Of a DNA stretch of 28,055 nt, positions 4,906 through 14,496 are shown in pieces. A program made the translations under genes and the position numbers. This DNA is from a virus. A model generated the notes under the pieces. It did not search any database, was not told the DNA's origin, and saw only the letters and a program-made list of their open reading frames with translations. The DNA is taken from IMG/VR virus record IMGVR_UViG_3300031857_001064, positions 1-28,055 of that record. One strand, 5' to 3'. Within the stretch, counting starts at the first letter, position 1; every line of letters starts with the position of its first letter.

Positions 4906-4981
4906 CGTCTTCCCACTCGGTGGGATCAACGCTGGGATGATCAATGCGCAAAGGAAGGCCAAAAGGGGAGTCAAGACTCAT
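4889..4981 (-). CDS. Acidic 30-residue microprotein
   Basis: This short frame starts at ATG 4981, overlapping the transglycosylase stop as TAATG, and has a strong GGAGG ribosome site nine bases upstream, better than many larger genes here. It encodes 30 residues ending in a highly acidic tail (PTEWEDDEDDD) and overlaps the start of the HNH gene by 17 bases. The spacing, ribosome site and coupling suggest real translation, either for the peptide itself or to couple translation into the HNH gene. No family is recognised. Confidence 0.5.
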   Translation of the reverse strand: MSLDSPFGLPLRIDHPSVDPTEWEDDEDDD

Positions 4982-5418
4982 TAATACCAACCTCCGTGTA
5001 AATCGGGTCCTGCTTGCTTTTTCCAAAACGCCCAGGCGTTGCAGGGAGTGCCGTAGCGCTTGTAAATATACCGAAGCCCAGCATCAATCTGAATGTGCGG
5101 GTCTTTTGGTTTGTAGGGGAACTTGTAATTTCCCCAAGTGGATGGCAAGAATTGAGCAATTCCAAAAGCCCCCGAGGACTTGTTGTGGGCGGTTGGCCGC
5201 CAGTTGCTTTCTTTCATCCACAGATCGTGCAGACACTTGAACTCACGCTTGGGGTTGAGCCACTTCAACTCAACTTTCATCGCTGCATAAACCTTCGGCG
5301 GCAAGATCTTAATCTTTTGTGCTTGGGTTAAATACGGCGCTTGCGCTTCCGCAGGTGCTGCTGCAACGAGTCCAACCGCTAATGCGGCCGCTAAGAGAAC
5401 TCGCGCTGAAAACTTAAC
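4981..5418 (-). CDS. Secreted lytic transglycosylase (SLT-like) with non-canonical start
   Basis: The mature domain shows the SLT lysozyme-like pattern: LWMKESNWRPTAHN with the catalytic Glu, then SSGAFGIAQFLPSTWGNY, HIQIDAGLRYIYKRYGTPCNAW and a final GWY. It would cleave the glycan strand of peptidoglycan. Ahead of it the frame encodes a clear signal peptide (KFSARVLLAAALAVGLV, cleavage probable after AQA). Between the upstream in-frame TAG and residue 38 there is no ATG, GTG or TTG. AAGGAG (5425-5430) lies six bases before a GTT codon at 5418, which is annotated here as the presumed start. The TTG at 5304 would remove the signal peptide. It is separate from the lysis cassette. Confidence 0.78.
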   Translation of the reverse strand, partial: VKFSARVLLAAALAVGLVAAAPAEAQAPYLTQAQKIKILPPKVYAAMKVELKWLNPKREFKCLHDLWMKESNWRPTAHNKSSGAFGIAQFLPSTWGNYKFPYKPKDPHIQIDAGLRYIYKRYGTPCNAWAFWKKQAGPDLHGGWY

Positions 5419-5421
5419 CGA

Positions 5422-5511
5422 CTACTCCTTCTGCCCCTTTCGACAGACTTCGCAGAGTTGTTCTCCAAAATGCCACGCACCATACGCGCAGCGGTTTAGC
5501 ATCTGATCCAT
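5422..5511 (-). CDS. 29-residue cysteine-containing microprotein
   Basis: ATG 5511 is preceded by AGAGGA at eight bases and the frame runs to TAG at 5422. The 29 residues include three cysteines, two as CEVC, suggesting half of a zinc knuckle. It stands directly before the transglycosylase and in the same reading frame, separated from it only by the TAG and a Ser codon. It may therefore be a coupling leader, an independent peptide, or the N-terminal part of a readthrough product. No family is recognised. Confidence 0.5.
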   Translation of the reverse strand: MDQMLNRCAYGAWHFGEQLCEVCRKGQKE

Positions 5512-13741: not shown

Positions 13742-13984
13742 TTACTTGGTTTTCTTTTTAGACTTCTTAGCGAGCGCTTTGATCTCAACATCAACAGCGT
13801 CAGCGATAAAGCCAAACGCTGGGTCCTTTGGATTAATTGCGCGGATCGCTGGGCCAGCAACTGCGGCTAGACCCGCAATAAGGATGGCTTTCAGATCGGT
13901 TTCCCCTGCTGAATAGACGGCGATCGCCGCGACTACAAAGGATCGTGCGTATGACTCAAGTGCTGCTTTTAACTTTGCGTTCAT
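13742..13984 (-). CDS. Small membrane protein, holin candidate
   Basis: ATG 13984 is preceded by AAGGAGACCAA and overlaps the endolysin stop by ATGA. The 80-aa protein has a hydrophobic segment (SFVVAAIAVYSAG) and a second one (LKAILIAGLAAVAGPAI), then a conserved-looking RAINPKDPAFG and a lysine-rich tail (KKSKKKTK). Small proteins of this pattern follow the lysin in many actinophages and are usually annotated as holins or membrane proteins. With another two-TM protein upstream, it may be holin, antiholin or pinholin. Confidence 0.68.
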   Translation of the reverse strand: MNAKLKAALESYARSFVVAAIAVYSAGETDLKAILIAGLAAVAGPAIRAINPKDPAFGFIADAVDVEIKALAKKSKKKTK

Positions 13985-14496
13985 TTGGTCTCCTTGAACT
14001 TTGGTTTACCGAAGCCCACAATTGCTACAGGCTGCGATTTGACTAATTTACTGCCGTTCTTTTTCTTATAAGCGCGAACCTTCAAGCAGCATTCGCCGCC
14101 GTTTCTTTGGTTGCCTTTCTTATCAGGGCTGGTATTTCCCTCCACGCAAGTGATCGTGCCGTTGCCGTTGTCTTTTACAACAATTCCAACATGGGAAATG
14201 CGGTCGATCCCATCGCCTGGGAAGTCAAAGAAAACAATGTCGCCAGGTAGCGGAGTTGCTTCCTCGGCCGCTTGCCATTGGCCTTTATCCAGGAACGCCT
14301 TTGCTCCTGCTTGAGTGGAGACGCAGTTTGGGATCTTTAGCGCTACTTGATTTGCACACCACATCACAAACGATCCGCACCAAGGTAAGAAGTTGGCCTT
14401 GGTAAAAGCGCCGTACTTGGTTTCGTTATCTTTTGGCCCTTCAATCGTGCCGACTTCCTTCAGCGCAACTGCCACAAACTCATCGCGTTGGCTCAT
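13981..14496 (-). CDS. CHAP-domain endolysin
   Basis: The 171-aa lysin is almost entirely a CHAP domain: the nucleophile is in LPWCGSFVMWC (Cys 40), the general base in RISHVGIVV (His 102), and the third residue in CVEGNTS (Glu 119/Asn 121). It would cut a peptide or amide bond in host peptidoglycan. No separate wall-binding domain is visible, only a basic C-terminal end (KKKNGSKLVK). ATG 14496 has GGAGGGCG upstream. There is no signal peptide, so it needs a holin to reach the wall, which fits the adjoining membrane genes. Confidence 0.88.
   Translation of the reverse strand: MSQRDEFVAVALKEVGTIEGPKDNETKYGAFTKANFLPWCGSFVMWCANQVALKIPNCVSTQAGAKAFLDKGQWQAAEEATPLPGDIVFFDFPGDGIDRISHVGIVVKDNGNGTITCVEGNTSPDKKGNQRNGGECCLKVRAYKKKNGSKLVKSQPVAIVGFGKPKFKETK

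Follow-up and report, generated by a model that had tools for sequence, protein, structure and literature searches.

How does a phage begin translating a gene whose reading frame offers no recognized start codon? The window analysed here, a viral stretch of 28,055 nucleotides (IMG/VR record IMGVR_UViG_3300031857_001064), carries on its minus strand the coding sequence of an SLT lytic transglycosylase that is predicted to be exported (4981..5418, 145 amino acids plus a TAA stop). The preliminary description had noted that this frame holds no ATG, GTG or TTG from an in-frame TAG to a codon well inside the protein, and this is borne out: the earliest such codon is TTG 5304, residue 39 if GTT 5418 is residue 1, which lies 3' of the codons for the signal peptide, and 100 distinct homologous contexts likewise have no canonical start at the position of the GTT. 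Read along the minus strand, the junction runs AAGGAG (5430-5425), TAG (5424-5422), TCG (5421-5419) and GTT (5418-5416), followed by AAG TTT TCA GCG CGA in a frame that stays open up to TAA 4983-4981. AAGGAG (5425..5430), a Shine-Dalgarno (SD) sequence, sits 6 nt 5' of GTT as described earlier, and the microgene that ends at the TAG does have a good ribosome site, since this mini-ORF (5422..5511, minus strand, 29 amino acids, MDQMLNRCAYGAWHFGEQLCEVCRKGQKE) runs from ATG 5511 to TAG 5422 behind an AGAGGA at 5524-5519. An identical stretch is present in two other contigs. Comparison of relatives points to GTT (5416..5418) as the start codon. Our preferred answer, which we hold with a probability of roughly 70%, is that ribosomes reinitiate at this weak codon after finishing the mini-ORF, positioned by the SD and by a hairpin that acts as a starting block, and that this arrangement limits the amount of exported enzyme.

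The SLT catalytic domain of the protein (residues 63-129, 5032..5232) matches Pfam PF01464 at 36.7 bits against a cut-off of 21.3 (E 3.4e-9), and its catalytic Glu is invariant across 13 aligned proteins. Residues 1-27, (M)KFSARVLLAAALAVGLVAAAPAEAQA (5338..5418), read as a signal peptide by sequence and alignment, with Lys at residue 2 and an AQA cleavage motif whose site we placed by inspection; a basic residue usually comes next after the presumed start in relatives as well, as in signal peptides. Comparison shows that this frame is translated: in the main CTG clade pN/pS is 0.19 over codons 1-12, so that the signal-peptide frame evolves as coding, whereas the remaining two frames give 0.8 and 4.2 (codons 1-25). 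In the more diverged GTT/TTT/ATA set the value is 0.59, and synonymous sites there are near saturation. A separate CHAP-domain protein, likely an endolysin, is encoded in the window as well (13981-14496), and the transglycosylase therefore need not be the main lysin. No cellular homologs were confirmed among genome contigs.

A first related-locus search of the window gave 29 relatives and further scans added more. The comparison covers 100 contexts on viral contigs that are distinct over the region from -30 to +57 around the alignment column of GTT 5418, hereafter the start column. This column reads CTG in 38 contexts, ATA in 38, GTT in 19, ATT in 3 and TTT in 2, and ATG, GTG or TTG in none; it is thus a non-canonical NTN codon in all 100, and its second base is U in every row of our alignments A4 and A5. 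The suggestion that the GTT is itself used as a start gains support from this comparison. The competing suggestion that one base has changed is untenable given the many independent contigs that lack a canonical start, which rule out sequencing error as the cause for the transglycosylase family. In a tree of 106 transglycosylase proteins from which the N-terminal residues were excluded, 73 proteins form one clade (SH-aLRT 95) whose starts are all non-canonical (CTG 35, ATA 20, GTT 14, TTT 2, ATT 2), and the lineages that neighbour it have ATG or TTG starts; non-canonical codons also occur outside the clade, in L226, L208, L210 and L220. Codon identity at the start column requires at least 14 changes across the whole tree, and each of the five codons is a single substitution away from a canonical start. 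Because the canonical codons are so close and yet absent from the clade, selection against strong starts seems to have acted on this position.

The absence extends to the surrounding frame in 50 of 77 non-canonical rows, which have no canonical start between the upstream in-frame stop and codon +12, and most of the other rows have one only within the signal peptide or the mini-ORF overlap. The earlier wording that no standard start occurs stands for the window and fails for L003-L007, with a TTG two codons past GTT, and for L013, with a TTG three codons past CTG; these codons, at position 3 or 4, could serve as starts in those lineages and are not family-wide. Two points count against a start at the column: in L021, L024, L118, L185 and L188-L194 the frame, when extended upstream, contains canonical codons, and GUU pairs poorly with the initiator anticodon, UUU (in L056 and L059) even more so. 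The start of L209, once read as GTC, was reassigned to an in-frame TTG. The phage records searched contained no gene for IF3 or for any tRNA, the initiator tRNA included. Use of weak codons at the column is well supported by comparison of the relatives, from which we infer that the column is the start.

The SD is conserved along with the column. Over 77 rows, computed pairing with the anti-SD averages -4.9 kcal/mol at the column versus -1.0 in the background, and it peaks for SDs placed around the start column. At proper spacing the SD is strong for GTT, ATA and ATT and weak in many CTG rows, with mean pairing of -6.2 kcal/mol for GTT, -6.0 for ATA and -3.1 for CTG. The stronger SDs that go with ATA and GTT look like compensation for the codon, in a comparison that is confounded by phylogeny. 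We also considered whether the SD is sequestered by a conserved UCCUY of codons 6-7 and rejected this, as the pairing is no better than in swapped or synonymous controls.

In all 100 contexts the stop of the upstream mini-ORF falls within 4 nt of the start column. The stop ends at -4 (3 contexts), -3 (56), -2 (4), 0 (1), +1 (12) or +4 (24) relative to the column, and among the overlaps are CTGA, ATAA and TAATA, which resemble the classical ATGA and TAATG junctions except that a weak codon replaces ATG. The spacing of SD and hairpin is constant to the start column and variable to the stop. The unfailing proximity of stop and column favours reinitiation after the microgene, which had been listed as an alternative to a GTT start; the two are mutually compatible. 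The mini-ORF itself appears to be translated, judging from its ATG and SD in the window and from a pN/pS of 0.35-0.38 in two subclades, evidence that covers the window and those subclades. Its product, present upstream in most relatives, is usually 29-40 amino acids long, Cys-rich and zinc-ribbon-like. The window version has a degenerate zinc-ribbon-like Cys pattern and no Pfam match. Some lineages have an unrelated peptide of 12-22 amino acids in its place, among them L237, L244 and L291, where the zinc-ribbon mini-ORF is swapped for such unrelated ones and the hairpin is kept. It is the position of the mini-ORF that is conserved, not its product.

The hairpin (5365..5405, minus strand), which the preliminary description had missed, lies within the coding sequence and starts 13-15 nt past the first nucleotide of the start codon. 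In the window its outer helix pairs 5404-5397 with 5373-5366 (8 bp), the ninth pair of the family, 5405/5365, being C-U here; an 8-nt 5' bulge (5396-5389, consensus UYNUARNN) is followed by an inner helix of 5388-5384 with 5379-5375 around a loop at 5383-5380. The consensus comes from alignment A4, which has 41 sequences and was not fitted to any structure; in it, columns 14-22 pair with 46-54 to form a 9-bp outer helix, and the inner helix reads GCC(GC)/(GC)GGU. Standard pairs make up 94.1% of the hairpin cells, whereas slid controls are at most 45% paired, and 71 cells are changed on both sides versus 27.8 after shuffling, a count that 0 of 500 shuffles reach. A second set was fetched with a DNA pattern of the hairpin core that took no account of the start codon or of the lower part of the outer helix. 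Its 64 loci above 40 bits with the covariance model have ATA, CTG, GTT or ATT in every examined column, as do all 43 distinct pattern-retrieved loci except the spurious L258; L258 and L302, matches to the covariance model at 22.8 bits, were dismissed because a stop follows two codons on. Among the 27 distinct sequences of this set, the outer-helix columns outside the pattern show 52 double changes versus 21.2 when shuffled (0 of 500).

Codon usage bears the same mark. Synonymous sites of codons 6-10 are unexpectedly fixed among 28 representatives, with Leu codon 7 being CTY in 27 of them and codons 8 and 10 ending in A and C, respectively, in all 28. The mean hairpin minimum free energy (MFE) is -16.0 kcal/mol over 71 sequences versus -9.9 for synonymous recodings, and none of 100 replicates is as low. 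General MFE over -45 to +45 against base shuffles gave a weak signal (z -1.6 to 0.7); it took covariation and the comparison with synonymous codons to bring out the hairpin. Of 27 phage records, 26 contain a single strong match to the covariance model. In most rows one of the inner pairs is G-U, which favours a sense-strand RNA and disfavours a DNA cruciform. These comparisons show that an RNA hairpin exists near the start, where it may affect initiation. The covariance model found no hairpin at the start of the tested ATG and TTG sister lineages or in L208, L210 and L220, and blastn found none in cultured phages. Rfam has no family at the hairpin; its sole match, the L31-Firmicutes leader at 14.8 bits (gathering threshold 33.3), falls within the mini-ORF. 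As L208, L210 and L220, which are more distant and start with ATT, lack the hairpin, it is not strictly required.

We propose that ribosomes finish the mini-ORF and then reinitiate at GTT 5418, which would be read as fMet. The terminated ribosome would stay bound through the SD, which lies in the 3' end of the mini-ORF, and the place would be fixed by three signals, namely the SD, the nearby stop and the hairpin base 13-15 nt downstream. When the P site contains the start codon, a ribosome occupies the mRNA up to about +15; the hairpin, as a starting block, would meet the leading edge of the ribosome and hold the weak NUN codon in the P site, and acceptance would follow. With a weak codon de novo initiation would be low and output would be tied to translation of the mini-ORF; initiation of this kind would presumably be sensitive to IF3. 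We speculate that low output keeps an exported wall-cutting enzyme scarce, which suggests how phages may hold an exported muralytic enzyme below the lethal dose. A bolder version, tempting even if we would bet against it at even odds, is that SD, adjacent stop and bulged hairpin together form a codon-tolerant initiation element with selection against the three canonical codons. If so, any NUN codon, UUU and GUU included, would serve, codon identity would be nearly irrelevant, and the element would be a structured site at which reinitiating bacterial ribosomes begin, one that is specific to wall enzymes exported by phages.

Conservation in the hairpin goes beyond pairing: U23, A27, R28 and U38 are constant in 71 of 71 sequences and U26 in 69, and A27 is a synonymous third position. 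The conserved residues of bulge and loop lie at 5389-5396 and 5380 in the window, and a specific binder may exist. It is conceivable, and the most serious challenge to our reading, albeit an unlikely one, that the near-cognate codon is the start and the hairpin, instead of aiding initiation, is a regulatory site, either an inhibitory structure or an operator that an RNA-binding protein of the phage or the host recognizes. A conserved bulge and loop would suit recognition by a protein; however, the obvious candidate binder, the zinc-ribbon mini-ORF product, is replaced in L237, L244 and L291, which keep the hairpin. Far less probable is a start at the AAG after the column or at another nearby non-canonical codon. 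In the subclade of the window AAG comes right after GTT, and it differs from AUG by a single mismatch, but that position is CGC, GAG, AGG, GTA, ACA or other codons elsewhere, whereas the column itself keeps its second-base U.

We give even less credence to a fusion of mini-ORF and transglycosylase made by readthrough of the TAG or by a frameshift, with the hairpin stimulating the recoding. Hairpins do stimulate recoding, and the two frames are shared in the window and in 57 of the 100 contexts, but in the other 43 the mini-ORF lies in other frames, with start column and SD unmoved, and one event cannot serve all. Since all three frame relations occur, neither readthrough, which the preliminary description had offered as an option, nor a single frameshift is the route to the enzyme. 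SD and hairpin also keep their distance to the start column rather than to the stop, the signal peptide would be buried in a fusion, and the hairpin lies about 17 nt past the stop in the window, farther than the usual recoding spacers. A start further in, at TTG 5304 or its equivalents, with the signal peptide unmade, is just as implausible, for although no earlier codon would be taken as a start by a gene finder (the open reading frame list of the window begins the frame at 5304), relatives have no common canonical codon there, the signal-peptide frame is under purifying selection, and in sister proteins the N terminus that follows an ATG resembles a signal peptide.

Non-canonical starts (as in infC and sigR), translational coupling and initiation-activating stem-loops are each already known. 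In Streptomyces, a strong SD precedes the GTC at which sigR starts, and IF3 represses the gene (PMC5472188). It resembles our loci as an actinobacterial gene with a non-canonical GUN start and a strong SD in which a weak codon, conserved across species, limits the product. However, sigR is a host sigma-factor gene with a single fixed codon, and the coupling there is of the downstream rsrA to sigR, whereas here we have a phage enzyme gene with five weak codons, a mini-ORF that ends at the start, and a hairpin. In Jagodnik 2017, as described in PMC7769764, a coding-sequence stem-loop of E. coli fepA is proposed as a 30S starting block, and such early stem-loops in fepA and bamA activate initiation. 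The hairpin described here, whose activity we propose, is similarly early, but comes with non-canonical starts, covariation across a large phage family and a conserved bulge. In eukaryotes, the downstream hairpin of Kozak (described in PMC2001202), which begins at about nt 12-18 of the coding region, offsets a weak context and raises non-AUG initiation, in a system of scanning 40S subunits in contrast to a bacterial phage with an SD. A short distance and an SD both favour reinitiation near stops, and the lysis gene of MS2 likewise places a lytic function behind a translated gene with output dependent on termination (PMC2268962). Unlike the RNA phages, ours are dsDNA phages with non-canonical codons. 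Lysis starts of RNA phages are canonical, AUG or, in fr, UUG, and they are not known to have a covarying downstream hairpin of such kind. A limited literature search turned up no phage gene family without a canonical start that has all three features in fixed geometry, and what we describe looks like an unrecognised way to start, and limit, protein synthesis.

With at least 100 natural variants, the family, which comes from uncultured phages, combines five weak codons and several geometries of stop and start with a covarying hairpin at the ribosome edge, and it makes non-AUG bacterial starts and starting-block hairpins directly testable. Because gene finders accept only ATG, GTG and TTG, N termini and signal peptides of this family are missed. 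The sister clade L133-L179 (MLNIRIN...), which starts at ATG behind an SD of its own (AGAGGAG) and has neither mini-ORF nor hairpin, is a natural control group. In L208, L210 and L220, where the hairpin is absent, the ATT start lies within the 3' end of the upstream gene (WhiB-like in L208). The cultured camviruses Endor1 and Joe have TTG as the transglycosylase start: in Streptomyces phage Endor1 (L214) it lies at 576, one nt past the upstream stop, and in phage Joe (L215) at 531, versus an annotated GTG further in at 573 that drops the N terminus. L226 (1857-2249; the same in L227 and L271) shares its mini-ORF, GTT start, hairpin and signal peptide with the family, but its SLT domain is divergent and clusters with L029 on long branches, as though initiation module and enzyme domain recombined independently.
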